Shown one piece after another: positions 1,346 to 47,385 of a stretch of DNA of 64,000 nucleotides. The notes beneath the pieces are model-generated. The model saw nothing but the letters and a program-made list of their open reading frames with translations, did no database searches and had not been told where the DNA came from. Origin of the DNA: Sphaerolaimus hirsutus (taxonomy: Eukaryota; Nematoda; Chromadorea; Monhysterida; Sphaerolaimidae). How positions within the stretch are numbered: the first letter of the stretch is position 1; the number at the start of each line of letters is the position of its first letter. Where the stretch lies: contig OZ038459.1 of the NCBI GenBank assembly GCA_964036195.1, positions 4,089,206 to 4,153,205 on the forward strand. The letters run 5' to 3'. A program made the position numbers and the translations under genes.

Positions 1346-4300
1346 GTTTGTCGGTGGTTTGATTGAGTGATTAGTATTTAAAAAACTGGCGATTTTGGGA
1401 AAATATAATTTAATAGAGTTTCAGAAAGTCTCTCAAACGAAAGCTATAATAAAATCTCTCTTGAAAAACCTTGGAAGATAGGTATATACAAATAACATCT
1501 ATAGTCGAGCTAGAGTATTTTTTGAGAAATTACCGAAAATCCCCTGGCCCAGACCCCTGTAAAGTGCCCTGTCAAGTGTCACGCAAACTATCAAAAATCA
1601 TGTCAACTCGAACTTGATAAAAAAACTTGATATTTTGCAGAATCTGATCGTGGCATCTGCGGGGTTGTGGCAATTACCAACTAACCAACAGAAAGAAACC
1701 CCTCCCAAATCCTCAATCCATCCAAAACCATGCAATAACCCATTTTCAGCGCGCATTGTGCAGCGGCAGCCTGACGGCGGCAATAAACAACCAAATTGGT
1801 CAAACTCAAATCCGCCGCGCGTCACACCGACGCACGAGGAGTTCCGCGGAAGCTGCCGCCGCGGCACATAGAAGGGAGACTAGACTGCACATGTGAGTGT
1901 GGGTGCTACTGTTGCAGTCCCGGAGCCTGTAAAATGCCCTGTAAAATGTAAAATGTCAAGTGTCAAAAGTCATGTAAAATGCCCGGTAAAATGGCAAACG
2001 TACGTGCATGACATTACCCATTTCACAGGGTCTGGGAGTGGCACCTGGGTTGGGGAGGTAGATACAGCTTGTGATTAAGCCCCCCTGGGGCACAGGGGGG
2101 CTTAATCACACCCTGTAAACCCACATCTTAATCCCACACCCTGTAAAATGACAAATGTAATGAAAAGTGTCAAAAGCCACGTAAAATGTAAAATTTTATT
2201 GTTTACTGAACATATGGCATTTTTCACGACACTTTTTTCATACGATAAGAGGCCAGGGGCCAGTTCCGCAAGTGGAAAAGTTAAGAGTTAAAATTTAAGA
2301 GTTGAGTAAAATGACAAATGACAAGTTATGAGTAAAGTTGAGAGCAGGGTTGGTTTTATAAAAATTCATTTTAGTAAAATTGTATAAAAATTGTATAAAA
2401 ATTTTATTTTATTTTAATTTTATTCTTGTTTCATTTTATTTTATTTTATTTTATTCCCAAAAGTCATTAATAATATAAAATGACACATTTTACAAAAATT
2501 TTACAAAAGTTGTACAAAAAATTTACAAAAAATCAGAATCATGCATGCAAGGCCAAAAAATGTTATAATCAGACCTATACATAAAAAACCTGTGACAAAC
2601 TTTTCAAAAGTTGCATGCAGTATGTATTGTTAGCTAGCTGTAAGTGTAAAGTTGCAATTATTGATAAGAATGGTTTGCACTTTCAGTAGAAGGACTAGTG
2701 GAGTGTGATGGGCACATTTGTAAAATGTAATGCAATTTGTCAATTGTCATGACAAATGTAAAGTAAAGTGTCAATTGTCATGCAAAATGTCAAGTGTCAT
2801 GTCAAATTTCAAACAAAGTGGCAATTGTCATGACAAATGTCACGCAAAGTGTAAATTGTGTATCCAAATCTTGTGTTTTTGTAACCATAGTATATTTTGT
2901 ATCCAAATCTTATGTTTTTGTATCCAAATGTTCACATAAGATTTGGATTCAACAACAACATAAGTTGGATACAAAACATAAAATTTAGATATAAAACATA
3001 AGATTTGGAAACAATTTGCTTGACAATTGATACATTATTTTTTACATGTCATGACAATTTACACTTTACCTTACATTTGTCATGACAATTGACACTTTGC
3101 ATGACATTTTACATGGCATTTGACACTTTACACTTGGGACTGCTCCCAGATACATGAATAAACAGGTAGAAACTCAAGCAACGAGATAAAATTTTACAAA
3201 AAAATATGAATTTTTATACAATTTTACAAAAATTCGAATTTTTATACAATTTTTATTTTTATTCTTAAATTTTCCATTTTATTTTATTTTATTTTATTCT
3301 TGAATATTCCATTTTATATTTATTTTATTTTTATTTTTTTCTGAGATTTTGCCAACCCTGGTTGAGAGTTAAGAGTTGAGTAAAACGACAAATGATTTTA
3401 CTCAACTCTTAACTTTTAACTTTACTCATAACTTGTCATTTGTCATTTTACTCAACTCTTAAGTTTTAACTCTCAACTTTTCCACTTGCGGAACCGGCAC
3501 CAGCCATACCTAATGTGAAAAGAATGAACTCGGCGCAACGAAATTCAAATTCTACACACAATTATCCATAAAAACTGGGCCAAATTTACATGGTCAAAAA
3601 AGTCACTCAAACTCACACGCGGATGCATTTTCACCCAAAAAACCCGCGCAGGTACATGGCGCACGGCGGCAGCAAGGACATCGAGCTGTTCGACGAAAGC
3701 GACGAAACTGCTTCGGGCAGCAACGTCTCGCCGGTAGAGGAGCAACTTTTGCTTAATGCTGCCAATAGTAGGTTTTGTATAGTGGGGTTTGGGCGGAAAA
3801 GCGTGAATGCCCCCCCCCCTTGAATAAAACCCGTCGGATGCCCAAAACTGTGTCGACACATTGGCGCCAATGCGATGGCCGCGCCAAAGAGCGCCAAAAG
3901 CGCCATGGCGCTTTTCTTGTTACTGGCGCAGGGGGGATTACAGTTTAACGCAGAATAGGCAATGGAAAATTTCAACGGAAAATTGACTACATGAGAGTGG
4001 ATGATGGTAAAGGTCTCAAATTTTCGTGGATAATATATTTATCAATACCGGTATTGGGTCCTTAACACACCGTGGATGGTCACAGCTGGATCGAACTAAA
4101 AATTTAAAAAATGACAATTTTCCGTTAAAATTTACCGGCAGGGAACTAATTTTAATTTTGCATTAATTATTGCATGTAACCGAAATAATCCACATTTTGT
4201 CAACTGCCCAGAAAGCGAGCAGAAAACAAGGGTTGCATCGGGGAACTCAACGCGCCCTACAAAGTCTAAAAGAGGAGCAATATTTGAACTTGGAAGCGAG

Positions 4301-6568: not shown

Positions 6569-6930
6569 CCGTATTACATCGAAATAACCCCATGGGGGTT
6601 TATTATTTCGCCAGCAAAATTTGAGGGGAGTTTATTCGAGGGAGGGGTTTATTATTTCGCCAGAAATTTTCGTAAGGTTCGTAGTAAAAAGTAGGCATTT
6701 GCGTACCCAAAACAGGTGATAAATGTGTCCAAACAGGATATATTTGGACAAAAAACGTAGATAGCTACACAAACTAGTCTATGTGTAGCTGCAATGCAAA
6801 TTAGCGGTAGTAGATACATCATGTACATTGCATACATGATGTACATCATTCCGGGGGGGGGATATTTCGAGGGGGGGGTATTATTTCCCCAGCCCATTTT
6901 GAGGGGGGGTTAATTCGAGCTAAAATGGTA
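6569..6930. mobile_element. TACCGTAT-type TA-flanked element, worn
   Basis: CCGTATTACATCGAAATAAC at the left; G-runs of the kind TTTATTCGAGGGAGGGGTTT inside; right end ATTCGAGCTAAAATGGTA. Shares the ACAGGTGATAAATGTGTCCA interior with 7672-8385 and 32445-32852. Confidence 0.55.
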
Positions 6931-7671: not shown

Positions 7672-8385
7672 TACCGTATTACCTCGAAATACCCCCATGG
7701 GGGTTTATTATTTCACCAGCAAAATTTGAGGGGGGGTTTATTCGGGGGGTGGGGGTTTTTTTCGAGGGGGGGGGGGGGTTTATTCGAGGGTTTTTTATAT
7801 TATTTTGTCAGAAATTTTCATAAGAATCGTAGTAAATAGTAGGCATTTACGTACCCAAAACAGGTGATGAATGTGTCCAAACAGGATTTATTTGGACATA
7901 AAAACGTAGATAGCTACACAAAATTCATATTGCAAGCAGCAGTCTGACGTGAAATGTCAAGTTGTTCCTTGACACTGTGACGTGAAATGATGATGACGTG
8001 AAATGATAAAAATTGAATTTTTCAATTCGACCTAGTTGTGGCTGATAACACTCAGTATTGGACACGATTAAGGTATTGATTCATATATTATCCTTAGAAA
8101 ATTGTAGACCCGTAGCATGTTCCACACTCGTGTAACTTATTTCACGACGACATTTCACGTCATCATTTCACGTCGAATCGACGCTGAGCTCTAATTCCCG
8201 CTTAATATACATCATGTTCATTGCATGATGACGTATTTATCATGTACATGACGTACATCATTCCGAAGGGGGGGGGGTATTTCGAGGGGGGGGGGGTTAT
8301 TATTTCCCCAGCCCATTTGAGGGGGGGTTAATTCGAGGGTGGGGGTTAATTCAAGGGGGGGGGGGTAATTCGAGGTAATACGGTA
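7672..8385. mobile_element. TACCGTAT-type TA-flanked element with an inner insertion
   Basis: Ends TACCGTATTACCTCGAA and TTCGAGGTAATACGGTA. Long G runs (TTTCGAGGGGGGGGG). Interrupted at about 7930-8201 by half of the GAATTAGAGCTC palindromic family, whose outer end is followed by TTAA. Confidence 0.75.
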
Positions 8386-8428
8386 TGTAGAAACCAAAAG
8401 TATAGCTGTAAAAGTACACAAGTAAGTA

Positions 8429-8467
8429 TCACTGTTGCTCATACCCATCATATTGATAGTATTCACC
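8429..8467 (-). CDS. Gene C last exon
   Basis: After ggtctgggactgtcctcag the frame reads GEYYQYDGYEQQ and stops (TGA, 8429-8431). The Tyr/Gln composition continues that of the preceding exon across the MITE, which is the best argument that the MITE is removed as an intron. Confidence 0.65.
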   Translation of the reverse strand, partial: GEYYQYDGYEQQ

Positions 8468-11400
8468 CTGAGGACAGTCCCAGACCGTGTGTAATGCCCT
8501 AAAAAGTGTGAAATGTCATGCGAAGTGTCAAAAGTAATGTAAAATTGTAAGCATATGCTTGCCATTTTCCAAGGAACTTTGTATGACTTGATTAGACACT
8601 TTGCATGACATTTGAAATTTTCAGAGCATTTTACAGGGTCTGGGAGTGGCACCTGATTCTCCTCCTGTTGTCCACTTGGCAACAGATTTTTAGTCTGAAA
8701 TGAATTATCTTCCTTCATTTGATCCTGGTCATGGTGCCCTGCTTCAATTGTCAATTGAAATTGATGTTGTAATTGATTTTGTTGGTTGCTGTTTCCATAG
8801 TTGTATTGGTTATAACCAAAATTGGCAGCTTGTTTTGGTGGTCTTTTTTGGCTGGCTGGTTTGGTTAGTTTGGGGGGTTTTCATGTTTTATAAAAATATT
8901 TTTGGATATCATCTCATAGACAGAAATACATACAATTTTTGAGTTTAAGAAGTGCTACTGTGGTTTCTACATGCCTTTGAGATTGTAGGAAATGTGTTCT
9001 ATCCACATGCCTTGTAGAAATAGAATAGAATACTCCTGTGGTAAATACCTCCATAAATCAAATCTATGCAAAAATGACACAGTTCTCAGTCAATGTGTGG
9101 GTCTTAAGGGAAAGTCTCTGCTCTTGGGGAGCAAACTGAGTGGCAGAGGTGACAAAAGTTTGGGTCCATAGCACTCTCAGCTACAAGAAGCAACTGTGAC
9201 TGGAGGTAAAGCACCCCTTGGACAATAGGCACTTGAATTAACATACATCAGGTTTTAAGTTGCCAAACGTGTTGGGAACAACTGAAAAAGCTTCAAAAAA
9301 TTAAAGCCTTCCTAAAAAGTTTTCAAATTTTAAAATCTATTTTTGCCACCATTAATTCAAACCAGCACAGAAAGGGGTCAATCCTCGCACCCCATAGTGC
9401 CATATTCGTTCAATACCATAATGTGGGGGTGGGCGCGGGTTAGGATATGGGCGGGTGGGATACGGACCATACGGTAGCGGCCTGACGCAGGGGTAGCCGT
9501 GGGGGCACCTGTATTCAGTGTGGCCACCCATGGACCAGGGCACGTAGACTGGCACCATGCGTCCACTGCGATGGGAATGGAAATTGAGGTATGGTATCTG
9601 ATGTACCTACCATATACCTTGAGTAAGAGCCCAGGGGAGTCATTTTGTCATCAGTTTTTTTTGGGAGGGGGTGGTTATTTAAGGGGGGTATAGTTCAAGG
9701 GGTTATTTTTTCCTCAGAACTTTCTTGAACACAAGGGGGGATGTTATTTAAGGGAGGGGGCCGTTATTCAAGGATATACGGTAATTGTGCGTAAATGTAA
9801 TTGCCCCCTGGAAAATGTAAAAGCGTGTATTTAAAAAAAATTTTGCCCCAATTTTCACTCAAAAACACTAATTTTCATATCTTTTTGGAGAGTTTCACTT
9901 TCAACTTCACTAGTTCATCTGCTTTTGAACCCCTCTCGAAATACCCCTGTCAAAATCTCCACTCTGAAAAAATAAACCCCCTGGGGGTATCTCGATGAAA
10001 TACGGTACCGTATTTGCTTGAATAGTTCCCCCTTGAATAATTCCCCCTCGAATAATCCCCCCTTTAAAGATTTGATTAATTTGTTATACAATACCTAATT
10101 TTAACAAAAATAGCACGATATTGTGTTTATGAAGCATATTTCGTGAAACGAGTTGATGGAAACATGCTTGAATATTTTGATGAAATAATAATTCCCCCCT
10201 TAAATAATTCCCCCCTCGAATAGTTCCTCCCACAAAAATATCTGACAAAATAATAATCCCCCAGGGTGATTATTCAAGCAAATACGGTATATGGATTGTA
10301 TGAGTGAAATTGAACAAAAATTTTCAAATTTGACAATTTTCAAATCTCACCACCAGTCACAATTCCGCTTTCAAAACAGTGCATTTTAATAAATAAAATT
10401 ATAAAAACTCACGTGCCTTCTTCACGCACATAAATTATGTGAAAGTCCCTGCGCTTGATCACCGGTACTGGATACGGCCCCTCAGTTCTAAAATCTGTCG
10501 CCATCGTTTGACGTGCTTTTTCAGTTGTCGTTTGGTAAGGGGTTGGCGTAGTAGGAGGTGCCCGTGTAGGCGGGCGCTTTGCTAAGCATTCCGCATCGTA
10601 GACGCCCTCGTAATAGTCCCAGGAAAGTGAGGTTCGGATTTGAGTCCTGTGCGGGGTAATTGTGGATGTTATATGTAGCTGATTGGCTATTTACACAGGT
10701 CCCGGTCCCCGGCCGGGACTTGTGTAAATAGCCTAGCTGATTGTATTTAGCATTGAAAAAATCTCTGGGAGATTTATATTAGTACACTAGTTTTCACAAG
10801 AAATTTCGAAAACTCATAAATGAGCTGTAAACGTGTTTGAGTTTTCCACATTGAGTCATTTTTGATATCTGCCAACTGTAGTTGACGGCCAACTCATTGT
10901 AGATAACTCAAATGCGTTCTAAGCTGATTTGTGTGCTTACAAAATTTCGTGTGAAAACTAGTGTGCGCGGGCACATTCAAACATATACTCGGCAGACACG
11001 ATACTCTACAAACAGAAAGGAGTTGTGTCTTGGGCTGGCAGACGGCCAGCCGAGAACTTATGGAAGGCGTGATGACGACGTGATGGCGAGAGATGTTGAT
11101 GGCGACGAAAGTGATCACGTCATGATGGAGTGTTTCCTCCGGAAAAATGTACGGCGTGATGTCATCCGAGTATACACAGTAGTAGTACCGTAATACATTT
11201 ATTAAGCAGACAATCGAGCTAACCCCTCCGAAAGATAGCATCTGCACGTGAGAATTATGGTATTCGGATCGTTACCGGGCACTGGAATGTCGTCGAAATG
11301 GAGTCGGTCTACTGTGGCGCTTGCACCTGGGTACAAAGTATTTCCGTGGACTCCAAGTATAACTCGGCAGACATGATACTATACAATGAGTCGCATGATG

Positions 11401-28694: not shown

Positions 28695-30164
28695 GTGAGT
28701 TTCATCTATTGTTTGTGAGTGTGTGGATTGTGTGAACGTTTAAAATGTGAACAAAAACGTATTTTAACGTGTTTCAGCCAGTCTTTTGGTCACGACGAGT
28801 ACTTGGCAGGTTGCCAGGGATTATACAACCGCAAACGATGGTCAATGCGCTTACGTTCCAGCCCGAAGCAGTGGTGAGTGCGATGTCCACTTTACATTCA
28901 CCATTTTCTGAGGCAAAATTGTCACCTTTCAATTTTTATTTCTCAGGTAACTGAAAGTTTTTCTACCATTCCAGTTTCAATTTTCGTGGCAGAATTTTTC
29001 TTCCTCCTTTTTCATCCGTTTTTCAAATTGCAAAAAAATTTTACACCCTAAAAGTGTGACACAAACACAATGGGAACTATTTTGGTCAGAAAAAGCTGTT
29101 GTAATAAAAAAACATTTTGTAATCAAATAAAATGGTAAAAAAAAATTTTTGGTAAAATATTGGATATACCGTATTAACTCAAAATACCCCCAGGGGGTTT
29201 AGTATTTCGCCAGCAAAATTTGAGGGGGGGGGGATAATTCGAGGGGGGGTTTATTTGAGGGGGGTCTGTTATTTCGCCAGAAATTTTCGGAAATTCCCCA
29301 TTCGCAGACGTGGACAAATCTAACAATTACGCAGATGTATATGTGTTTATAGGCATATATAACTGTATATACACATACACCTTTCCCTAACGTCACTTAG
29401 CCATCACTTTTAACGTATGTTCTGCATTGTACAGATCACAAACTACGGTATTTGTTATGTACGTTCTCTTTACACTCAATTTTAGGGGGGTATTTCGAGG
29501 GGGGGGGGTTATTATTTCCTCAGCCGAATTTTAGGGGGGAGATTTCGAGGGGGGGGGGTTTATTCAAGGGAGGGGGGATAATTCGAGGTAATATGGTAGA
29601 TAAACTGATTCAGCTTATGAAACGTTTGATGACCAGTTTGGGTCGGGCCAGGGCCCAGGGAGAAGTTCCAAACCCTGTAAAATGCCCTGTAAAATGTCAA
29701 ATGTCATGCAGTGTCCAAAGTCATGCAAAATGCCCTGCAAAATGGCAAACACATGTTGTTTTCGCAAACAAAATTCATTTTTTGCAGGGCATTTTACATG
29801 ATTTTGCATGACTATGCATCACATTTGACATTTTACTGTGAATTTTAAAGGGTCTGGGGTTGGCTAAAGGTACGAAACTCACTCAATGTACACGACACTT
29901 ATAGCAAAAATTTCACCCACAATCAACATAGGTAAAACGAACACCAAAATGAGCACACTTTCAACAATATTTAAAAACATCAACTAGCAGAGCTACCCAT
30001 CGCAGCTTCGCTCCGCTCTGCGCGCTCCACTTGGCACGGTGCCAAAACCGAACACGAGCACGAAGGACACGCGGCAGTTTGTGCCAAATTTCGATACAAC
30101 GAAAGCTGAGGAAACGATCAAGAAAGCGAAATCCATGCTCATGTTTAAGGGATGGGTGGAGTGA
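28590..30164 (+). CDS. Gene B: small unidentified protein, 119 codons in 3 exons, complete
   Basis: Exons are 28590-28694, 28778-28873 and 30006-30164, all joined in phase 0 with consensus donors (AAGAGT|gtgagt and GCAGTG|gtgagt). An in-frame TGA lies just before the first ATG; a second ATG at 28617 would give 110 codons. The sequence starts MIISLSHAFMHATAASPLLF, has a basic middle (SRRVLGRLPGIIQP), and ends with a Lys-rich segment (FDTTKAEETIKKAKSMLMFK, GWVE, stop). I see no signal peptide, membrane span or known motif. Intron 2 contains a TA-flanked transposon and an introner-family MITE. Confidence 0.6.
28778..28873 (+). CDS. Gene B exon 2
   Basis: The acceptor is taacgtgtttcag|CCAGTC and the donor GCAGTG|gtgagtg. 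Exactly 32 codons, phase 0 to phase 0: PVFWSRRVLGRLPGIIQPQT then MVNALTFQPEAV. The intron to exon 1 is only 83 bp. Confidence 0.6.
29167..29598. mobile_element. TACCGTAT-type TA-flanked element in gene B intron 2
   Basis: TACCGTATTAACTCAAAATA and ATTCGAGGTAATATGGTA; its sequence GCATATATAACTGTATATAC is the empty-site counterpart of 58780-59475. Confidence 0.75.
29655..29860 (+). mobile_element. Introner-family MITE in gene B intron 2
   Basis: AAACCCTGTAAAATGCCCTG at the left and AAAGGGTCTGGGGTTGGC at the right, with GTCATGCAAAATG-type internal repeats. It is well inside the intron and does not define its ends. Confidence 0.55.
30006..30164 (+). CDS. Gene B exon 3 (last)
   Basis: The acceptor is ctacccatcgcag|CTTCGC. 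52 codons then TGA. Contains LRSALRAPLGTVPKPNTSTK and FDTTKAEETIKKAKSMLMFK. GC-rich start and purine-rich first codon positions support coding. Confidence 0.6.
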   Translation, partial: LRSALRAPLGTVPKPNTSTKDTRQFVPNFDTTKAEETIKKAKSMLMFKGWVE

Positions 30165-34885: not shown

Positions 34886-34929
34886 TCAATGGCAATGTCC
34901 CCCAGTGAATCTGGCCCCACCAGGGGGCA
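34886..34929 (-). CDS. Gene D last exon
   Basis: PPGGARFTGGHCH then TGA (34886-34888). The Cys would be the fourth of sushi module 3. The acceptor used is GGTCTGGGAG|TG; another in-frame acceptor (TTTTACAG|GG) reads a different end (LPLRFCDL). The choice is uncertain because the element end here reads CTG instead of CAG. Confidence 0.45.
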
Positions 34930-37900
34930 CTCCCAGACCCTGTAAAAGACACTGCAAATTGTAAATACCCTGTAAAATGTCATGTGTCATGTAAAAGACC
35001 CTGTAAATTGGCAAATGTTTTGCAAAAGACCCTGTAAAGTGTGATGTGTATTTAAACCTTATCTGTTCATATCCAAATCGTATGTTTTTGGATCCAAATC
35101 TTATGCCAAAAAGTATGATTCGGATACAGAAGCATAAGATTTGGATACAATAAAATATGATTTTGATACTGACGTGTAACGATGGCAAAAAAAGATTCGA
35201 AAATTCGAAAACATTTTCGAATTTTCGAATTTTTTGGGAATTTTCGAATTTTTATTCTGCCCCTAGAAAAAACACTTAAAAATCGATTTATTTTTGAAAA
35301 AATTCGAAAATTCAAAAATTCAAAAATTCAAAAATAGTTTTCGAATTTTTCAGGGAATTCAAGGCAAAAATGCACACTTAAGTTCAACATGTGACATAAA
35401 TCGGTAATTGATACGCGGCGCGTATGAAAAATGGGAACATTAAGCAGCGTTTACACTTTTTGTGTGCAGACAAAAATGTTCTGGCTTTCATGACATGAAA
35501 ATTGACTACCTATTCGTTGTGTCTGACATGTGTTTTTTGAAGGCATTCAGCCCAAGGGAAAATGGTGCCGCAAGTGCCTACACACACTAGTTTTCACCAT
35601 GACTTCAGTGAAAACAAGTGATGTAAAAGCGCCATGGCACTGGCGCCTGGCGCTAGCGCCAAAGCAAAAGGCGCCATGGTGCTTTTTGCGCTTGGCGCTA
35701 TTTTGTTGTGGTGCCATTGTCGCTTGGTGCCATGCCTATGAAAAGCGCCATTTAGCTTTTGGCGCTTGACGCTATTTTTGACAGGCGCCAGGAACAAAAT
35801 GCCTGGTGCTGGCGCTTGGTGCTAGCGCCACAGAAAAAAGCTTCTGGTGCTTGGTGCTAGGGGTCAGAAAAGCACCATAGCACTTTTCACATCACTAGTG
35901 AAACTGAATTTTTAATTTTAAATGCAAATTAATCATCACAGTGGGATGATTTAATTGAATTTTAATTTTGATTAATGAAAGTTGAAATTAAAAAATTTGA
36001 AAACTAAAGCACATATAATAGCGTACAATAGCATACTGTAACCTGAATGTCGCCATGTTTTCATTTCAGTTTTCACCCAAGTCACAGTGAAAACTAGTGT
36101 GTGTAGGGCGAATGTGCAAACACGCAATGCAGCACACTGGTCCCCATAACTCCTTCCTCCCACCATTTTTAATGCTAAGTTATGGTGAAAATAAGGTTTA
36201 AAAGTGATCAAAACATCAAAACAGTCCAAATTCTGTGTTTTAAGCTTCAGATTCCTTATTTTTCAAAAAAAATTCAAAAATTATTTGAAAAAATTCGAAA
36301 AATACCCAAAAAAATTCGAAAATTGCCAAAAAAGATTCGAAAATTCGAAATTCGAAAATTAAATTTGAAATTCGAAAATTATTTTGGAGAAAAATTCGAA
36401 AATTCGAAAATTCATTTCAGAAAAAACACTTAAGCGGCGTTTACACTGACACGTGTGACGACAAAAACTTTTTGGGCTTTCAACTTTCTTTATGTCACGA
36501 AAATTGAATAATTGTTGTGTCAGACACCTAGATCTCGATCACTCTTTCTGCCTAGGACAAACATAAATTTTTATATATGACTTGATCATACACAATAAAA
36601 CAAACAAGAAAATTTGTCGTCACAAGTTGTCGGTTCGAGTTGTTCCCGGGAGCCTCGTTAACGAGGCTCCCGGGAACAACTCGAACCGACAACCTGTGAC
36701 GACAAAAATTTATGTTTGTCCTAGGCAAAACGAGTGATCAAGATCTAGGTATCTGACACAACAAATATTCAATTTTCGTCACATAACGAAAGTTGAAAGC
36801 CCAAAAAAAATTGTCGTCACACGTGCCAGTGTAAACGCAGCTTTAAAAATTTTAATACTTTTTTTCCGACCGTTTGCCATCGTTACTGACGTGGGACTTT
36901 TACATGACAGGGACTTTTACATGACAGGGACTTTTACATGACATTTCACACTCTACAGGGTCTTTCACATCACAAATAAAATTTTACAGGGTCTTTAACA
37001 TCACACATGACATTCTACAGTGTCTTTTACACTTTACATGGTCCTTTAGAGGGTCTGGGAGTGGCACCGGGGTGGTTAGCATTTCCTCCCCAGAACCAGT
37101 TGCCATCATTCTGACACGTGGCAATCATTGAGGTGACCTGGTGCACAGTTACCTGATCCTATTTGGTATTTTTGTGAGTTTTTATCGGAGGAAGTGCCTT
37201 CACAGTTAACAGTGAGTGTTCTAAAAATATTTGGGAGATATTATATTGTTTTAACTTTAGAAATATATGATTTTATTATATTTATATTTCTCCCATGACT
37301 TATAAGAATAGTTATACACTACCATGCAGAAAAGTTGACACTTTTCACCAATAGAGGAATGGGGGTCTCTGGGTACACCGGCATAAATCTGCAGGGTAGT
37401 TAGGGTATATATCTGAAGGGTAGTGAGGGCATCAATCCGCAGGGTATTTAGGGCATAAATCTGCACTGAGTTAGGGCATACATCTGCAGTGTAGTTATGG
37501 CATATATCTGCAGGGTAGTCAGGGCATAAATCTGCAGGGTAGTTAGGGCATAAATCGGCATGTGAGTTAGGGCATATATCTACAGGGTAGTGAGGGCATC
37601 AATCCGCAGGGTATTTAGGGCATAAATCTGCACTGAGTTAGGGCATACATCTGCAGTGTAGTTAGTGCATATATCTGCATGTGAGTTAGGGCATATATCT
37701 ACAGGGTAGTTAGGGCATAAATCGGCATGTGAGTTGGGGCATATATCTACAGGGTAGTGAGGGCATCAATCCGCAGGGTATTTAGGGCATAAATCTGCAC
37801 TGAGTCAGGGCATAAATCTGCAGGGTAGTTAGGGCATAAATCGGCATGTGAGTTAGGGCATATATCTACAGGGTAGTTAGGGCATAAATCGGCATGTGAG

Positions 37901-40900
37901 TTAGGGCATATATCTACAGGGTAGTAAGGGCATAAATCTGCCTTCCTGAAAAAATTTAGGCCCTGATAGCTTTCCCATCACTACTGTTAAGGGCATTGCC
38001 ATCGCAGCATGTCAGCCCCTGACTAGAGCCGAGCCACCTCTGTAGTCTAGTGGTTAGGGCATTCGTGTTCTGTACAAGAGGTGCGGGTTCAATTCCCACC
38101 CGATGCAAGTGCCATTTTGCACTCTTTCTCTACCCACCACTCATCAATATCTCGAGTAAACTAGATGCTCTGTGACAACTGTGCACCATGTAGTTGATGG
38201 AGCCGCAGGGCATATGCATGTAGGTTCCAGAGGTGCAGTACACACGCACCTGGGCGCCATATGCGAAGCGACCGGTGGCACTCACAGACCCTGTAAAAAG
38301 CCCTGTAAAATGTCAAAAGTCATGGAAAATCAGGGCAAACCGAGTTGCCATTTTGCAGGGCATTTTCCATGACTTTTGACACTTTGCATGACATTTGACA
38401 TTTTACAGGCCTTTTTACAGGGTCTGGGAGTGGCGCCATAATTGGAGGAGTGCTGTGATTGGAATGAAGGGGTTGATTCAGATGACAATATCACAATGCC
38501 ATGTATGATGGTTGTTCATTTGTAGAGGTATTCCCGATTTAAGTGTCTGGATAGGTACCGTAAATCCTCGAATAAGTCCTCCCCCTCGAATAACTCCCCC
38601 CCTCGAATAACTCCCCCCTGTTAGCTGACTGAGGAAAAAATAACTCCCCCCCTCGATTAACTCCCCCCTACTTTATGCGTGGAAACGACGTACATGTATA
38701 AACACGTTGTAAATGTATGTGTACATTGAAAAGAATGTGTTCTTTTGCTGCTGATGTTCACTAGCGTTGATTCAATTACAATAAATATTGATTCATGCAT
38801 GAATTTAACCCCATTCATACAGTTTATTCATCACGCATTTTGCTCAAAATGGTGACGAAACAATAACTCCTCCCCTCGAATAACTCCCCCCCTCGAATAA
38901 GTCCCCCCTCAAAAAATTCTGACGAAAAAATAACTCCCCCGGGGACTTATTCGAGGATTTATGGTATATATTTTTGAAATGGACAGTTTTAGTTTCGTGG
39001 TTAGGTATAATTTTAAAGGAATATCTGTTAAGAATGCACACGCACTGTGATCAGTGGTTTCCACTTCCATTGCTTTTTATGTGAGCTCACAAATTTAATT
39101 TTTTTTTTTTTGCCATCGTTATTTTCAACTCACATAGTACGATGTTCCCAAGCTTATGCCACCACAGTCAGCGCGATTTACCGCTGGACATTTTGCTGAA
39201 AAACAATGTATTTTTCTCAAAATATGAGTTTCAGATATAAGAAATGTGAAATGTGAAATCGTTGTTTTTTATCAAAAATAATCTACCTAATGGCCCTACA
39301 CACACTAGTTTTCACCGTGACATTTGTGAAAACTGAAATGGCCACATGGCGACATCCAGCCTACTCTTATTGTATGCTTTATGCATTTTAGTTTACAAAT
39401 TTTCAAGTTTCAACTTTCATAAAATAAAATTCAAATTTTATGAAATTAAATCACTCAACGGTGTTCATTAATTTTCATTTGAAATAATCTGTTTTCACAC
39501 GAAGTGAAAACTAGTGTGTGTAGGCACAATCTGGTATTTCTTAAGATAATTCGCAGATTTCTATAAATTGTAAACTGCCCCTGGTGACTTGATGTTTTGG
39601 AAACGCAGGTTTGCCCACTGTTGCATATGTCAATGTCCCAGGTACCATCCTGGTGCCACTCCCAGACACTGTACAAAGCCCTGCAAAATTTCAAATGTCA
39701 TGCAAGGTGTCAAGTACGTTTTCCATTTTGCAGGGCATTTTGCATGACTTTTGACACTTTGCATGACATTTGACATTTTACATGGCTTTTTACAGGGTCT
39801 GGGAGTGCCCCCTGCTGACAGGTTGCATATGTGCTGCTGCTTTGTGTCCAGCTATATGCTACCCAATAATTTGTGCTACATTGCATCCGCAAACGAGAAC
39901 CGTGATCATAAAAGCCGCTGCAAAGTTTGAATATCGTCCCAAATTGGCTTTTGGTATACTCGTCGGACGGCAAAATATGCATCCAAAATTACTTATGTCT
40001 TGCTCATGCGCGATTAGGATACTTTCACAAAAAGGAAAATATTTCGAAACGAAAAAGTATTAACGATGACATCATAATGGAGTGTTTCCTTCAATCAAGA
40101 GCATAGCATGCGGTCCGCGGAGTATAGGTTACCTATGTAAAATAGCCAGCGCTAAAGAAACAGTGACAACCGTATTTCTTCGAAATACCCCCGGGGGCGA
40201 GTGTTTCATAGTGCTCCCTAGAGGGGGGGGGGGGGGGGGGGTTAAACGAGGGGGGGGTATTTCGACTGGGGGGTGATTATTTCGCTAGAAATTTTTTGAA
40301 ATCCTAGTACAAAATCGTTGTTTGTGATGTACACTGGGGTAGAAAAATGCATCAATAACTGACATGTATAGACTCTTGTAGACTAATAGTAGTATGTAGA
40401 TGGTATAAACACTGTTCTAACGTGATTCCGACATTGTTTGACCATGTGTTCTGCACTACGCAGAACACAAACTGCAGTATTTGTCATGTACGTTCTCTTT
40501 ACACTCAATCTGGGGGGGGGTATTTCGAGGGGGGTTGATTGTTTCATAGTGGTCTCTGGTCTCGAGAGGGGGGGGGGGGGTCAAACGAGGAGGGGGGTAT
40601 TTCGAGGGGGGGGGGGGTATTTCGAGGGGGGGGGTATTTCGAGGAAATACGGTAAATCATAAAAAAACATAAACATGGAACTACAATTTGCATGGTTTGA
40701 AGTGGTGTGAAATTGATAATAAAAAGACAAAACGATGAGTACCTTATCACCAATCCTGGCCCAGCATACAGGGTGTAATCATACGCTGCTGAACACACTG
40801 GGGCGCTGCACACTGTGAGCAGCCAAAAGAATTTTTTTCAATTTCAAAATATCTAAATGTTGATTACCATATTTCTTCTAATAGAATGGCATGGGCCAGG

Positions 40901-43900
40901 CCTCCTACGCACAAATGCCTGGTACGGACAAACGCCTGGCACGCACAAACTTGTGCCCGCCACACACAAACTTGTGCCCGCCACGCACATCTTACATGGC
41001 TGATGATCTTTGCGTACCCGACAGATGGTCACTAATGTTATTGCACAGCGTTTTTCACTTAACTTATATCTGAAAATCACTTGAAAAAGTGTCAAGTGAA
41101 AAAAACGGTCAAAAATAGCCATTATCCATCGTTTTTTTCACTTGACACTTTTTCAAGTGATGTTCAAATATGTGTTAAGTGACAAAAAGTTAACTATTGT
41201 CATTGCACAACTTTTTTTTCACTTTACTCACAAGTGTGAAGCAGAGTTGCGAAAGTGTATTTATACTTACCCGAAATACCCGGGTAAATGGGTATTTATA
41301 TTTACACTTACACTTACACTTTCATAAAATACCCATACACTTTTTTACACTTTCCTGAGCAAAATACCCAGGTACAGAAAGTGTATTTTTTCTTTCAGAT
41401 GGCCCTGCTTTATGCTTTTGAGAAAGCATAAAATAGGGTCATGTAGAAAAAAATAACTGCACAGTGCACACATGCAGTTATGCATTGAATGTAGAAAATA
41501 TGGCCAATGTACAAACTAGGCTTTGATCTCCAACCTTTGGTCTGTACTCATGGTATTCTAAAGTTTCATCATACTTTTGTAAAAAGGACAAGATCAATGG
41601 AAATTCACCAGCTGGACACAAAGTCAACTGGCTTTTGCATTGACATTTGCTGCATGTTCATTCTTGCATTTAAACAGTGTGTATCACATTGCTTAATCAG
41701 TAAATTATCAACACTGAAAAAAATGACATTATTAGAGAACTGCATACCACTACAGTATTTGTTACAGTCTGAAATGTTTCATAAAAGGCAGTAAAATGTG
41801 AAATAATGCATGAAAATGACAAATAAATTGATCTAAAGCACAGCAAAAAATGGGTGTGTGATGCGCGGTGAAGTGTCCTGAAGTGTCTTCACGCAGACGC
41901 GCAATGTCGGCGTGCAGACACTTCACTACATCCCAGATGCTTCACGGCACTTCACGAACCATGTAAAGTATGCTGCAAAAGTTCGTGAAGTGCACTTCAC
42001 GAATTTTGGTCTTCGTGAAGCTAGGTGAAGTGAGTGGAAGACATTTCACCGAAAACGTCGTGAAGTGTGGAAGTGAGTGGAAGTGCCTTCACAGAGCGCA
42101 CTTCCACACACTTCACGAACCCATTTTTTGCTGTGAAGGTGAAAACGGTGGTGTTTTCTGATGTTCAACAGTGAGAGCTCTTTCTAAAAAAATTTTTTTA
42201 CAATTACACTTGTTTTTACACTTTCCTAGGTATTTATAAAATACCTTACACTTTTGGTATCCATAGTCAAAATTTAGAAAGTGTATTTACACTTACACTT
42301 ACACTTTCCAAAAATACCGGTATTTTAACAACTCTGGTGTTAAGTGAAAAACACGGTCAAAAATGTAATATAATGTCATTTTGTACCAGGCAAATGTGCG
42401 TGGCAGGCACAATTTTGTGCGTACCGGGCGTTTGTGCGTACCAGGCATTTGTGCGTACAAGTGCACCGCCAATGGCATACCTCCAATAGAATGACATGTG
42501 CAGTTGCACCTAAACAACGTAGCCTCACTTCATTCATTTTACCTCAACATTTTGTTATTTAAATTACTTTAATATTTATGCACCTGTGCTCGGCTATTTA
42601 CACAGGTCCCGGCCGGGGACCGGGACCCGGCAAAAAATAATTTTTTAAAAAAATGAATAATTGGCATGTATAAGTTGTTTGCATGCTAATTTGGTGATAA
42701 TTCACCTAATTAACATGCAAACAACCCATACATGCCAATTATTCATTTTTGAAAAAATAATATTTTGCCGGGTCCCGGTCCCCGGCCGGGACCTGTGTAA
42801 ATAGCCCCTGTGCTCACAGTAACGTTTATGTGATAACCCGACATTTTTGTAGATGTGTGATTCGATTTCACCTTTTTGATTGTTTATGTCACTTACATTC
42901 TTGCAACTTTAAAGCGGGAATTAGAGCTCAGCGTCGATTCGACGTGAATTGATGACGTGAAATGTCGTCGTGAAATTAATTACACGAGTGTGGATCATGC
43001 TACGGGTCTACAATTTTCTAAGGATAATATATGAATCAATACCTTAATCGTGTCCAATACTGAGTGTTATCAGCCACAACTAGAGCGAATTGAAAAATGC
43101 AATTTTTATCATTTCACGTCATCATTTCACGTTGAATCGACGCTGAGCTCTAATTCCGGCTTAACGACCAGGTGCTACCTGATTTTTCGCTTTGAGTAGA
43201 CACAACAAGCAGTTTGCTCACATTTTAGATGTTAACTTGACCACATTGTTGCATTCTGTTTCATATTAGATTCAGTCTACAACTATGCAATTTGATTTAA
43301 TGAGTGATTTTCGGTTTGAATTTGAAGTTGAATAAATAGAAAACTTGAAGAACATTTGACTATTTGTATTTCACGAAAGATAAATTTCCTCGCTCTAAAA
43401 GTGGACACACTTAAGTACAATAAAGCATGGAGCTTTACACAGCACCTCCAATAGAACGGCAGGTAAATAAAAGTTTACTAAAAAAATAGAACAGCGCTCT
43501 TCGATTAGAAAAAATACGGTAAACACCTGAAATTCCCAAGAAACCAACATCGAATACAAAAGTGTTTCTCCCATTCAAGTGGTTCGATTTCCCACTTCAT
43601 TTGAGCCACACACTTTACTGTATGCTCGGTCACTGCCGGGTTATTTTTTAGAGAACCCACACATGTGACTTCTGGGCAGTCCCAAACCATGTGAAATTGC
43701 CTGGAAAATGTCAATTGTCATGTAAAGCATCTAAAGTGATGCAAAATGCTCTGTAAAATGTCAAATGTCATGCAAAGTGTCTATAGTGATGTAAATATCC
43801 CATGAAAGTGGCAAACGCATGACATATGGCATTTTTAGGCCATTTTACATGGTCTGGGATTGGCACCAGCCGATTTTCCAACCGCTATCAAATCGGGGCT

Positions 43901-46900
43901 GGATTCTGATGAACCAATGTATCTGATTTTCAAATTATGATTCTGGTAGTTTTTGGGGCAGCCTGTGGTGATATTTTTAAACAATGTTCTGCAGTGTGGC
44001 AATTTGTGAATGAAAAACTCACGTTTGAAGGTTGGTTTACCCTTGCAGAATATCATTCCTGCCTTTTTCGTTACTTGAAGCTTTTTACTTATGACAGAAC
44101 CATGCAATGTGCACAGTTTCAAATTTGTGTCAAAACTGATTGTGAAACAGAATACATTATCATGGCACTTTCTTTCGCATTCGATCTGGTTGCTGACAGG
44201 CATGTCAGAAGTGATGGTTTCACCTGTTGAATGTTTATCAGGCACGCATTTCATGTTCCATTTAGCAGGTCCTGTAGGCAGCGTTTTTGGGATTTTGAAA
44301 TTTGACAAGTTACGAGAATTCAAGCTAGGTATTGTGTTTGAAAGTGAAAATTTTTAATTTCCTCTTTCTAATTTGCATTTCTAGTTTACTACTAATTGAC
44401 AAACTTTTTACCATTCCCAGTTATTTTACCCATTATTGGGCATCAAATTTTTAAATCATATCTGGGAGCAGTCCAAGCCCTGTAAAGTGTAAAGTCAAGT
44501 GTCAAATGTCATGTGAAATGACAATCAAAACAAAACGAAAATATTTCATTACTGAACTTTGCATGACAATTAACACCTTGTCTGACACTTTGCATGACAA
44601 TTGTCAACCTTGTTTGACATTTGTCACTGAGTTGTTAAAAGTACTGAACTTTTTTGAAAGTAAACATAAATGTAAAGTATTTATTTTTTTACTCGCAGGT
44701 GAGTACAGAAAACGTAAAGCATTTTTCAAATACTTTTACACTGCGTAAAACGTGCATAAAATACTTTTTTTTCATAGAAAACGTAAAAACGCGTATTTTT
44801 TCCAGGGAAAACGTAAAAATGGGCATTTTATTCAGAGAAAACGTAAAAGTGGATGTTTACTCTCACAAAAATAATCTAAAGATCGGTATCATTTTCGATG
44901 TTCACCCTGGAATACATCAAAAATGTGTTTTCTCTCCTGATAAGTATTTCTTAGTAATTTTTTTCTATTTTTGTCACTTTCTGTCTGGAAAAATGACATT
45001 TCTGACCACTTAAAATACCGGTCTGGTTTTCCGTACTTTCAAAAAGTACGCGAGTAAGTGAGTACCGGTATTTTTTTCGGGAGGAAACGTAAACATATTT
45101 ACGCAGTACACGTTTATGCGTATTTTTCGAGTAAACGTAAATACGTTTTAACAACTATGATTTGTCATAACATTTGAGACTTGACTTTACAACTTACAAG
45201 GGTTGGGACTGGCACCAGGCATACTCACTGTACTGCACAATAACAGGCAATTCTGCTACACCAGGGTCTGGTACTAATCCCATCCCAATAATGACACCAT
45301 ATGAATTTTGTGACGAAAAATTTGCAGGATTGACCCAATCTGCTGTGGCAGCAGTTGTCCAGTTTGCATTGGCACCTTTCCAAGAGAAAGTTGAATTGGC
45401 ACTGTCATAAGTGAGGCCAACTCTGTGCGCTGTCATTGTGTACTGAAATTTGTTCATTTGTTTTTGCTTCAAAAGTTATTTGCTGTAAATGTAACACCAC
45501 ATGGGTCTCTTGGTGAAAAATATGGGTATTCAAAATTGGACAAATTTTACTTGCAAGGCTAGTTGAGATTACATCGTATGCAATGAATTGAAGGTTACAA
45601 CAGTTGGGTTCAAGCAATGTTGCCGCATATACAGGGTGCGTCAATTTAGACGGACGCACTAGATTTCGAATAACTCATCACTGGGTGGTCGGATAAACGT
45701 CAAATTTTAGGTCAACATTAACAACTAAATAGGGAAGACTCCCTGAAAATATAGCAACGATCGTTCCACTCGTTCTCAAGTTATTCATGCAAACGCGTAA
45801 TTGTCACTACTTACACCTCATGACAATAGGCATTGAGCGATAAAAACGCACAAAAACCAGTGCAAAATTTTTATTATGAAGGAGTGATATGCACCGACTC
45901 ACAAAATGCAAGAAATGATCACACAATGTAACCAACACTCTTATCAATAGCCAACTGCAACCGATCTGGATTCATCTGCAGCTTCTGTTTTGCCGAAGTG
46001 TATTGCCACGAGGTGGTTGTAAAGCGACAATTATTGGTGTTTGCATGAATAACTTAAAAACGAGTGGAGCTATCGCAGCCATATTTTCAGGGATCCTTTC
46101 CTATTTAGTTGTTAATGTTGACCTAACACTAGACATCAATCTGACCACCCAGTGACGAGTTATTCGAAATCTGGAATGTCCGTCTAAATTGCCGCACCCT
46201 ATATGTATTTACTGGTTTAAATACTAACAGAAGTAAAGTCTGGGTGCTCATAAATTAGCTTTGAACGTATTTGAGTGTACCGCAATGAATTGTTTTAAAT
46301 CTTTGTCAACATAGTTGACAGACACCTCATTCTCGGGAACTGGAAGAATGCTTTCAAAGGCGATTTGTGAGTTACACAAATCTGAGTAAACTGGCAGTCA
46401 TACTTAGATGTGTAACTTTCAGAACAGAAGTAGATGTGTGCAACGGGGACTTTGACATATCTTTCAGTTTTCCCAAAAAAATAGCATTCTAAGTGGACAT
46501 GTTGACTTTTAGTCCAATTCAAGATGCTCTTGTTGATTGCTTGCTCAAATTTTCTTGGTGAATTCTTCCAAAAGTGCCAAAATTTGAATTACAAAAAGGT
46601 GAAGCAAAATTGTAGCAATTATGAAAAATGGTCAAAAGTGAGTGGATTTTGAAAATTTTTGGATTTTTGGTCCTTTTGAATTGGACAACTCCGATACAGT
46701 TTACCTTTTGAAAAGTCTAACAAATTCAATTCAAGTAAGCAAAAATGACACTTCAATAGAACACCCACAGCTTACATTCATTAGAAAGCTAGCAACCATT
46801 ATCATGATTTCAAAGTCCAAAGGTGCTGCCACTTGTACATTTGCTGCCATAATTCCATTTTGATTGAGCAGATCCTGACTCAGCCCAGCCCTGGGGGCAG

Positions 46901-47385
46901 TCCCAGACCCTGTAAAATGCCATGCGGTGACAATTTTACTTTGTTTCTTATTTGCAATTTTCCAGGTCATTTCTGATGATTACAGACATATTGCACGACG
47001 TTGTTCATTTTGCAGGGCATTTTCCATCACATTAGACACTTTGCATGAGATTTGCCAATCTGTAGGCCATTTTCCAATGATTTTAGGCACTTTATATACC
47101 ATTTGTAATTTTGCAGTGCATTGTTTATGATGTGAGACACTTTGCATGACATTTGCCATTTTGCAGGGCAATTTCCATGACATTAGTTATACACTTTGCA
47201 TGGCATTACCTAGACATTATTCAGGGCATTTTCAAGGGCATTTTCCAGGGCATTTTACAGGGTCTGACAGTGGCACCTGGTAAGCGACGGAAATGTCTCA
47301 GTGGTGCTAGTCAAAATGGCCCAGCACCAGCCCGCGTACTGCAGCACTGGGGCGCCCCTCGGCGATTTGCAATGCTTCTGCTCGG
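34886..47385 (-). CDS. Gene D: extracellular C-type-lectin / PAN / sushi protein, 5'-partial, 12 exons
   Basis: Transcript order: 47277-47385, 46776-46890, 45229-45442, 43867-44271, 43527-43671, 39794-39917, 39619-39649, 39134-39195, 38419-38452, 38187-38290, 37068-37137, 34886-34929. All junctions keep the frame, about 480 codons. Domains: a CTLD over the first three exons (HRVGLTYDSANSTFSW core), a PAN/apple module (CERKCHDNVFCFTISF, then KLCTLHG), and three sushi/CCP modules with paired Cys, one with DGTWD and one with NDGNW before the last Cys. The final sushi Cys is two residues from the stop. Such proteins act at the cell surface or in body fluid as recognition or adhesion molecules. 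The signal peptide exon is not seen. At least three introns coincide with MITEs. The CTLD lacks some canonical Cys residues, so sugar binding is doubtful. Confidence 0.75.
35177..36885. mobile_element. hAT-like element, duplication CTGACGTG, carrying further insertions
   Basis: Ends TAACGATGGCAAA and TTTGCCATCGTTA; CTGACGTG at 35169-35176 and 36886-36893. Stems are GAAAATTCGAAAA arrays. Inside are a CCTACACACACTAG element (35579-36108), itself holding a GCGCCA element (about 35619-35897), and a TTTACACTG palindrome (36431-36846). Confidence 0.85.
36431..36846. mobile_element. Palindromic element with a 68-bp perfect palindrome at its centre
   Basis: Ends TTAAGCGGCGTTTACACTG and CAGTGTAAACGCAGCTTTAA. 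36626-36693 is a perfect inverted repeat centred on GTTAAC, and the two sides continue as near-perfect inverted arms. Confidence 0.75.
37068..37137 (-). CDS. Gene D exon 11: sushi module 3, NDGNW motif
   Basis: The acceptor is actgtgcaccag|GTCACC. Reads VTSMIATCQNDGNWFWGGNA then NHP. The TCQNDGNW motif is the end of a sushi module. The donor CCCCG|gtgcca is the first base of a MITE. Confidence 0.65.
37372..37945 (+). repeat. 24-bp minisatellite
   Basis: About 24 copies of the unit TAGGGCATAAATCTGCAGGG+TAGT with variants (GGCATGTGAGT, CACTGAGT). It lies in the intron between gene D exons 10 and 11. Contains TTAGGG by chance of the unit, not as a telomere array. Confidence 0.9.
38034..38106 (+). 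ncRNA. tRNA-like sequence, probably the head of a SINE
   Basis: Has a tRNA A box (TAGTCTAGTGG, 38043-38053) and B box (GGTTCAATTCC, 38086-38096) at normal spacing. The acceptor stem does not pair (5' ACCTCTG, 3' CCGATGC) and the T stem has a mismatch, so a functional tRNA is unlikely. It sits in the intron between gene D exons 10 and 11. Confidence 0.6.
38187..38290 (-). CDS. Gene D exon 10: sushi module 3 middle
   Basis: Reads SVSATG (MITE-derived), then RFAYGAQVRVYCTSGTYMHM and PCGSINYM. The YGAQVRVYC strand is the conserved G-x-V-x-x-x-C of sushi modules. The donor ACATG|gtgcac, phase 0, is the one that fits the next exon. Confidence 0.6.
38291..38418 (-). mobile_element. Introner-family MITE in gene D using the inner splice pair
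   Basis: The element spans about 38271-38438. Its outer donor has decayed to GCGCCA and its outer 3' end to CACCGG. The inner pair CCCT|GTAAAAAG and TTTTTACAG|GGTCT is intact and in frame (phase 1), leaving about 12 element-encoded residues in the sushi module. Confidence 0.55.
38419..38452 (-). CDS. Gene D exon 9: short exon running into a MITE
   Basis: The acceptor is ttccaatcacag|CACTCC. Reads HSSNY, then GATPRP from the MITE end up to CCCT|gtaaaa. Phase 0 in, phase 1 out. An alternative GC donor exists at TATG|gcgcca, the position that is GTGCCA in other copies. Confidence 0.4.
38556..38966. mobile_element. TACCGTAT-type TA-flanked element in a gene D intron
   Basis: TACCGTAAATCCTCGAATAA and TTCGAGGATTTATGGTA with CTCGAATAACTCCCCCC repeats. 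Confidence 0.8.
39134..39195 (-). CDS. Gene D exon 8: start of sushi module 3
   Basis: The acceptor is cattgtttttcag|CAAAATG and the donor TACTAT|gtgagtt, both strong. Two bases and 20 codons: KCPAVNRADCGGISLGTSYY. A CP followed by a G-I-S loop is the usual sushi opening. Confidence 0.65.
39292..39534. mobile_element. CCTACACACACTAG element in a gene D intron
   Basis: CCCTACACACACTAGTTTTC and GTGAAAACTAGTGTGTGTAGG ends. Copies also at 35579-36108 and 61327-61575. The arms share AACTGAAATGGC and ACATGGCGACAT. Confidence 0.7.
39619..39649 (-). CDS. Gene D exon 7: sushi DGTWD motif
   Basis: Starts right after the MITE end: DGTWDIDICN, the conserved G-x-W before the fourth sushi Cys. The donor AACA|gtgggc gives phase 1, the usual phase between sushi modules, and matches the next exon. 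A longer reading to about 39535 stays open but does not match phase as well. Confidence 0.5.
39650..39793 (-). mobile_element. Introner-family MITE in gene D, ends partly exonised
   Basis: Full element about 39650-39808. The left end (CAGGGGGCACTCCCAGACC) lacks the GTGCCA donor of the other copies. Intron use is therefore inferred from the internal CCCT|GTAAAA to the terminal GGCACCAG|, which keeps phase 0 and leaves six element-derived residues in the protein. Confidence 0.6.
39794..39917 (-). CDS. Gene D exon 6: sushi module 2
   Basis: The acceptor is caaactttgcag|CGGCTT. Reads GFYDHGSRLRMQCSTNYWVA, then YSWTQSSSTYATCQQ, then GALPDP derived from the MITE end. The donor CCCT|gtaaaa lies inside the MITE inverted repeat. 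A boundary at ...TATGCAACCTGTCAG would restore the sushi sequence exactly but lacks GT, so the 3' end is uncertain. Confidence 0.6.
39955..40126. mobile_element. TATACTCGGCGGAC-type element, short
   Basis: TATACTCGTCGGACGGCAAA and GCGGTCCGCGGAGTATA. It lies 37 bases upstream of gene D exon 6. Confidence 0.65.
40169..40654. mobile_element. TACCGTAT-type element with long G runs
   Basis: CCGTATTTCTTCGAAATACC at the left and TTTCGAGGAAATACGGTA at the right. Confidence 0.7.
41242..42336. mobile_element. hAT-like CAGAGTTG element, duplication GTGTGAAG/GTGTTAAG
   Basis: Starts CAGAGTTGCG and ends TAACAACTCTG. The duplication differs in one base. Reverse orientation relative to 60511-61297, with the same interior. 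Contains a nested element at 41839-42135. Confidence 0.8.
41839..42135. mobile_element. CACAGCAAAAAATGGGT element nested in a hAT element
   Basis: Perfect 17-bp inverted repeats CACAGCAAAAAATGGGT. Stems are GAAGTGNCTTCAC arrays. AAG flanks both sides; the sister copy at 56657-57450 has the empty site (complement of ACCTTTAGATC). CAC termini with a 3-bp duplication fit the CACTA group. Confidence 0.8.
42592..42806. mobile_element. Mutator-like element, 9-bp duplication CCTGTGCTC
   Basis: GGCTATTTACACAGGTCCCG ends; CCTGTGCTC at 42583-42591 and 42807-42815. A 215-bp palindrome with TTGGTGATAATTCACC in the arms. Confidence 0.9.
42913..43160. mobile_element. GAATTAGAGCTC palindromic element flanked by TTAA
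   Basis: AGCGGGAATTAGAGCTCAGC and GCTGAGCTCTAATTCCGGC ends, with TTAA at 42909-42912 and 43161-43164. TTAA suggests piggyBac or Kolobok affinity. Confidence 0.75.
43527..43671 (-). CDS. Gene D exon 5: end of sushi module 1
   Basis: Begins right after the MITE. Reads VTCVGSLKNNPAVTEHTVKC, then VAQMKWEIEPLEWEKHFCIR, then CWFLGNF. The spacing C...KC...MKW...FC fits a sushi module. The donor AATTTCAG|gtgttt is 5 bases from the end of a TACCGTAT transposon in the intron. Confidence 0.7.
43672..43866 (-). mobile_element. Introner-like MITE forming an entire intron of gene D
   Basis: 195 bp from GTGCCAATCCCAGACC to GGTTTGGGACTGCC+CAG. Phase 1 is kept: G plus AA gives Glu, then VTCVGSLKN. The flanking duplication is imperfect here (GCTG versus CCAG), so this copy is probably older than the others. 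Confidence 0.7.
43867..44271 (-). CDS. Gene D exon 4: PAN/apple domain
   Basis: The acceptor is acgctgcctacag|GACCTG. Two bases, 134 codons and one base. The Cys pattern ECERKCHDNVFCFTISFD, then NLKLCTLHGS, then MIFCKG matches a PAN/apple module. The second half (PHCRTLFKNITTGCPKNYQN) begins a Cys-containing sushi-like module. The donor GGCTG|gtgcca is the end of a MITE. The plus-strand frames over the same bases are antisense shadows. Confidence 0.75.
44463..45217 (-). mobile_element. Introner-family MITE inside the CTLD-PAN intron, carrying a hAT insertion
   Basis: Ends GGTGCCAGTCCCAACCC (just after the exon 3 donor) and GGGCTTGGACTGCTCCCAG (about 190 bp before the exon 4 acceptor). The splice sites of this intron are conventional, so either the element landed in an existing intron or the sites have slid. 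Confidence 0.55.
44627..45159. mobile_element. hAT-like element, 8-bp duplication ATTTGTCA
   Basis: Ends CTGAGTTGTT and AACAACTATG, related to the CAGAGTTG family. ATTTGTCA occurs at 44619-44626 and 45160-45167. The interior is rich in AAAACGTAAA. It lies within a MITE within an intron. Confidence 0.75.
45229..45442 (-). CDS. Gene D exon 3: CTLD core
   Basis: The acceptor is aacaaatttcag|TACACA and the donor CAGTACA|gtgagtatg. Reads YTMTAHRVGLTYDSANSTFS, then WKGANANWTTAATADWVNPA, then YGVIIGMG. The GL-x(4-6)-FxW pattern and the later W are typical of C-type-lectin-like domains. The expected Cys residues of the second half are not visible in this exon. Confidence 0.7.
45632..46201. mobile_element. 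mariner-like non-autonomous element in a gene D intron
   Basis: CAGGGTGCGTCAATTTAGAC at the left and GTCTAAATTGCCGCACCCT at the right, flanked by TA. Inner arms share TTCGAATAACTC-type sequence and CCACCCAGTGA. No transposase frame. Confidence 0.75.
46776..46890 (-). CDS. Gene D exon 2: CTLD middle
   Basis: Begins directly at the end of the MITE intron. 38 codons: AGLSQDLLNQNGIMAANVQV then AAPLDFEIMIMVASFLMN, resembling the CTLD helix region (G-x-LA, then an acidic residue and a hydrophobic run). The donor ATGAAT|gtaagc is strong, phase 0. Confidence 0.65.
46891..47276 (-). mobile_element. Introner-like MITE forming an entire intron of gene D
   Basis: The 386-bp intron starts GTGCCACTGTCAGACC and ends GGTCTGGGACTGCCC+CCAG. 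CCAG precedes the element in the exon (TTACCAG) and is repeated at its 3' end, a 4-bp duplication. The internal part is tandem, with units like TTTGCATGACATTTGCCATT. AG plus G makes Arg, so the frame is kept. Confidence 0.75.
47277..47385 (-). CDS. Gene D exon 1 seen: start of CTLD
   Basis: The acceptor is tttgcaccgcag|CCGAGC. Reads EQKHCKSPRGAPVLQYAGWC then WAILTSTTETFPSLT. The donor TTACCAG|gtgcca is the first base of a MITE. Phase 2 out. The paired Cys and Trp fit the N-terminal strand of a CTLD. Confidence 0.65.

Follow-up and report, generated by a model that had tools for sequence, protein, structure and literature searches.

Structure of the locus

The stretch of DNA analyzed here (the window) is 64 kb long. 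In each of two apparent minus-strand genes it contains a copy of a short repeated element whose removal from GT to AG leaves an open reading frame (Table 1). The first of these, gene C, was read as three coding stretches (exons A, B and C) followed by the short tail GEYYQYDGYEQQ, and the second carries a predicted PAN domain. Dispersed C-rich and G-rich repeats of the CCCCC(T)CGAATAA type were recognized by eye on both strands at 6590-6910, 7675-8390, 10000-10290 and 12130-12560. A tRNA-like match (Rfam RF00005, 31.6 bits) lies on the plus strand at 38036-38107.

Table 1. Positions of coding stretches and family copies in the window (a slash within a sequence marks a splice or insertion border here and in the text; TSD, target site duplication).
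Feature	Position	Strand	Remarks
Family copy	1909..2044	-	GT...AG ends, CAG on both sides; without exon support
Gene C, final coding stretch	8432..8467	-	GEYYQYDGYEQQ; stop TGA at 8429-8431
MITE copy with right-hand TSD, proposed intron of gene C	8468..8652	-	GTGCCA...CCTCAG, 185 nt, phase 0
Right TCAG copy, proposed source of the 3' splice AG	8468..8471	-	
Left TCAG target copy, proposed to be kept as exon end	8653..8656	-	AATCAG
Gene C, open frame before the element (exon C)	8653..8880	-	N/Q/Y-rich, 25 of 59 tested residues; acceptor not fixed
Gene C, probable upstream coding stretch (exon B)	9391..9565	-	GRMVPVYVPWSMGG...; in-frame join to the 10413 exon set by eye
Gene C, probable upstream coding stretch (exon A)	10413..10630	-	Ends at GTGAGT donor
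Decayed family copy	29656..29866	-	Right flank CCTG
2.1-kb relative with the same ends	34921..37067	-	Longest listed overlapping ORF 121 aa
Family copy	38275..38436	+	Two ends of the GTGCCAC kind; flanks without match
Family copy	39653..39814	+	TSD CCTG
Frame restored after removal of the second copy	43508..43671	-	EVTCVGSLKNNPAV..., 55 codons to next stop; real exon end not fixed
Second MITE copy, proposed as an exact intron	43672..43866	-	GTGCCA...GCCCAG, 195 nt, phase 1
PAN_1 exon before the second MITE intron	43867..44271	-	PF00024; acceptor picked by eye
754-bp family copy	44462..45215	-	Apparently within an ordinary intron of the PAN gene, 13 nt from its donor TACA/GTGAGT (GT at 45228)
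Family copy	46891..47276	-	GT...AG ends, TSD CCAG; exon status unsupported

The coding potential of gene C was assessed by the G1-G2 codon asymmetry and by amino acid composition. In exon C plus tail the asymmetry is 0.15 in the claimed frame versus -0.09 and -0.06 in the other frames, which is among the top 3.4% of 672 stop-free windows; the test is limited, as it detects no asymmetry in the PAN exon. It supports exon A, exon C and the tail, and gave no support to exon B. The tail shares the unusual composition of the exon before it. Seven of its 12 residues are N, Q or Y, which is equalled by only 0.06% of 69,503 stop-free 12-mers from the six frames of the window (tail included), and all 12 belong to the set NQYGDE (0.003% of 12-mers, with a residue set that was picked after the tail had been seen). 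The Pfam search of the gene C pieces returned no domain, and in two protein homologue searches, which covered gene C and the PAN gene, none of the 24 and 41 candidates reached an E-value of 10 or better. These empty searches, the repeat-filled region, the failure of exon B in the frame test and the unremarkable lengths of the open frames around the element (76 and 12 codons if the claimed phase holds) would suit the view that no genuine gene exists at gene C, its N/Q/Y-rich frame being low-complexity DNA and the matching tail a product of luck. We regard this view as quite improbable, because it is opposed by the frame asymmetry of exon A, exon C and the tail, by the composition of the tail and by the GTGAGT donor behind exon A.

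The element in gene C belongs to a MITE family

The element at 8468-8652 starts with GTGCCACTCCCAGACC, ends with GGTCTGGGACTGTCC and has TCAG on both of its sides, as described in the earlier note. That note had also assigned inverted-repeat ends to it. The element is an imperfect palindrome with arms of 31 nt that are 81% complementary, and its outermost bases form only imperfect inverted repeats (GTGCCAC versus GGACAGT). Folded as RNA, the element reaches -66.7 kcal/mol (z -7.9), and none of 200 shuffled sequences was equally stable. When the element was compared with the window by BLAST, dozens of aligned stretches had E-values up to 1, the best of which besides the element itself had E-values of 6e-24 and 9e-22. 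Nine copies possessing both ends are located within the 64 kb, eight of which were tabulated with their flanks; the ninth is that at 38275-38436. The motif GGTCTGGGA, with at most one mismatch, occurs 22 times in the window (both ends of the 8468-8652 element included) compared to 7.5 expected occurrences, a number that was reached in none of 100 shuffles. The exact end patterns had no matches in viral_contigs and genome_contigs. An autonomous partner would be expected to carry the ends GTGCCACTCCCAGACCCTG.

The palindrome, the numerous BLAST stretches and the nine two-ended copies identify the element as a member of a MITE family, that is, a short element with terminal inverted repeats and many copies, and the earlier claim that this family extends across the window holds. 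A copy of 185 nt would be too short to encode its own transposase. The 2.1-kb relative may be closer to an autonomous element. Inside this relative, inverted arms occur at 36469-36572 and 36704-36807.

Reading frame and proposed splice sites at gene C

On the minus strand the order at the insertion is ...GAGGAGAATCAG / GTGCCACTCCCAGACCC ... GGTCTGGGACTGTCC TCAG / GGTGAATACTATCAATATGATGGGTATGAGCAACAGTGA. The GT-AG borders of the proposed intron coincide with the borders of the element and its target duplication, and removal from GT to AG joins ...EENQ in frame to the tail and its stop codon. Coordinates, end sequences and frame agree with the original proposal that the MITE is exactly the last intron of gene C, with an N/Q/Y-rich frame that would run unbroken to the stop after splicing.

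Since the element comprises 185 bases, its retention would shift the frame. The retained frame, a point absent from the earlier note, is also open, as part of a 220-aa stop-to-stop ORF (8218-8880) that extends 144 codons beyond the junction. With stops at about 5.1% of codons, the chance of 61 open codons was reckoned to be about 4%. Splice sites were scored with a hand-typed matrix, which gave a weak value of 0.79 for the donor CAG/GTGCCA versus 4.06 for the GTGAGT donor of gene C. With the same matrix, a competing donor just behind the element (AGG/GTGAAT) scored 2.65, and a competing acceptor inside it (TTTTTAG/G) scored 3.42 versus 3.55. The weak donor, the competing sites and the open retained frame could mean that the element lies in an exon from which it is spliced poorly or not at all, which would give a MITE-derived tail, alternative splicing or a damaged allele. 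This explanation appears unlikely to us. The retained tail would consist of the MITE followed by the C-rich dispersed repeat and is of poor composition, being equalled or beaten in amino acid make-up by 83% of the stop-free windows in a test that is itself uninformative, as even the PAN exon was not separated from the background. The spliced tail, on the other hand, has the composition of the exon, and the second copy shows a like geometry with a read-through that meets a stop after 10 codons.

A second copy with intron-like position in the PAN gene

The PAN_1 domain (PF00024) was detected in the unspliced ORF with 21.6 bits, above the cut-off of 21.4; longer spliced queries scored 21.0 and 20.9, just under this value. 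GT-to-AG removal of the copy at 43672-43866 yields ...SSPDLIAVGKSA/EVTCVGSLKNNPAVTEHTVKCVAQMKW..., with 162 open codons before the junction and 55 after it, and an uninterrupted allele of the locus would read GGCTGAAGTCA. Among 20,000 random placements, 1.5% had at least 55 open codons on the shorter side; as six copies were tested, this figure is moderate evidence on its own. The segment downstream of 43672 has an asymmetry of 0.18 in the claimed frame versus -0.16 and -0.03 in the others (top 5.7%), and the RNA fold of the copy has a z of -4.9. The borders of the copy coincide with GT and AG, but its target copies differ (GCTG and CCAG) and do not form a clean duplication. Its splice sites are poor, with scores of -1.42 and -1.18 from the hand-typed matrix. 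On the basis of the frame, this sister copy probably made an intron in the PAN-domain gene in the same manner.

Other readings of the surrounding sequence were abandoned. A sushi domain after the second copy and a C-type lectin domain in the exons before the PAN exon, both judged by eye, obtained no support from Pfam and PDB sequence searches. The copy at 46891-47276 is flanked by 54 and 53 open codons and was considered as a third intron. It is not counted as one, since the sequence upstream of it prefers a different frame and the domain search was negative. The 754-bp copy was rejected as the end of a coding exon, as by our own reading the GTGAGT donor in front of it agrees in phase with the PAN exon. 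Its apparent position inside an ordinary intron would conform to a history in which the MITEs entered older introns whose ends subsequently eroded, so that borders and splice sites coincide only in appearance. For the copies at 8468 and 43672 such a history is very improbable, because the proposed splice sites leave not a single intron base outside the MITE besides the right-hand target copy.

Target sites of the family

Complete 4-bp flank matches are present in three of the eight tabulated copies, namely TCAG (8468-8652), CCAG (46891-47276) and CCTG (39653-39814). The flanks of the other five differ at one or two positions (CCAG and ACAG, GCTG and CCAG, CCTG and CCAG, CCTT and CCTG, CCCG and CCTG). 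Across the eight copies 26 of 32 positions match, a locus-specific pairing that is not significant (permutation P 0.065), and the three full matches have a P of 0.19. By eye count, a G precedes the GTGCC-type end in nine of ten ends, and the tenth end is decayed. These data are suggestive only, and a 4-bp duplication with a preference for C(A/T)G would be the best account of the flanks. A fixed CAG terminus on every element is disfavoured by three right ends that read CCTG, although it may apply to a subfamily.

Five of the eight tabulated copies have GT...AG ends, and exon support, from frame alone, exists for only two of them (8468 and 43672). Due to its CCTG duplication, the copy at 39653-39814 has no AG acceptor. 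Most insertions of the family are at C(A/T)G and the element starts with GT, so that an insertion in sense orientation at CAG amounts to a ready-made GT-AG intron. This leads to the tentative idea of an introner family, probably animal to judge only by the style of the genes, whose C(A/T)G target is a proto-splice site, so that the choice of insertion site and not later mutation makes the introns. We hold this to be a possibility of less than even weight. If it were true, a single T-to-A change in the right-hand copy of the target would be required at CTG sites, and the second copy, with CTG on its left and CAG on its right, may show such a change.

Proposed origin of the intron in gene C

In the order of events that we infer for gene C, the coding end of the gene would have received, at AATCAG/GGTGAA and with duplication of TCAG, a non-autonomous DNA transposon (MITE) that has GTGCCA at its terminus and prefers C(A/T)G targets. 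The 5' splice site would be supplied by the element, whose first bases are GT. The left TCAG would stay as the exon end while the right TCAG would turn into the 3' splice site, and the spliceosome would excise the element together with one copy of the duplication. The insertion would consequently leave the mRNA unaltered (ENQ-GEYYQYDGYEQQ-stop), and the ancestral empty site would read AATCAGGGTGAA. An introner-type gain of this kind, as suggested in the earlier note, is in our estimation the probable origin of the intron. At the level of sequence it is favoured by the ends of the element and the duplication that flanks it, by the frame and the composition of the tail, and by the second GT-AG copy, whose removal restores a frame.

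Comparison with known introners

The origin of new introns is an old question. The step from MITE to intron could be traced copy by copy in a family that has intact ends, that occurs both within apparent genes and elsewhere, and whose target already makes up half of a splice site. A word-based (not sequence-based) literature search did not find the family of the 8468-8652 element; the mechanism is already known, and it is the family that would be new. The survey of Gozashti et al. 2022 (PMC9860276) reports only two groups with introners among animals and land plants, both of them animals. The same article describes introners that carry the 5' splice site and for which a 4-bp TSD provides the 3' site, as well as introners with terminal inverted repeats. 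It further states that introners are efficiently spliced in most species, which fits uneasily with the weak GTGCCA donor found here.

The introners of the Chrysochromulina type, according to the legend of Fig. 2C in PMC9860276, have the 4-bp TSD, the element-borne 5' splice site and the TSD-derived 3' site in common with what is proposed for the present family. No evidence of terminal inverted repeats is reported for them, whereas these are clear in the present family, for which two introns are supported from sequence alone. The MITE-like introners of Micromonas and Aureococcus, as described in PMC9860276 and PMC7789003, are elements with terminal inverted repeats and direct repeats at their borders that create introns by insertion, as proposed here. 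In one Aureococcus group both splice sites are part of the introner, and the mRNA gains 12 bp (PMC9860276), whereas the mRNA would stay unchanged in our case. The introner elements of Amoebophrya are characterized in PMC7789003 by inverted repeats, direct repeats of 3-5 nt at the borders and a hairpin that joins the exon boundaries, and resemble the proposed intron in these respects. They were defined there among introns with non-canonical splice sites, in contrast to the GT-AG borders proposed here. A similar layout is given in the same source for 1% and 15% of the canonical introns of two Amoebophrya strains.
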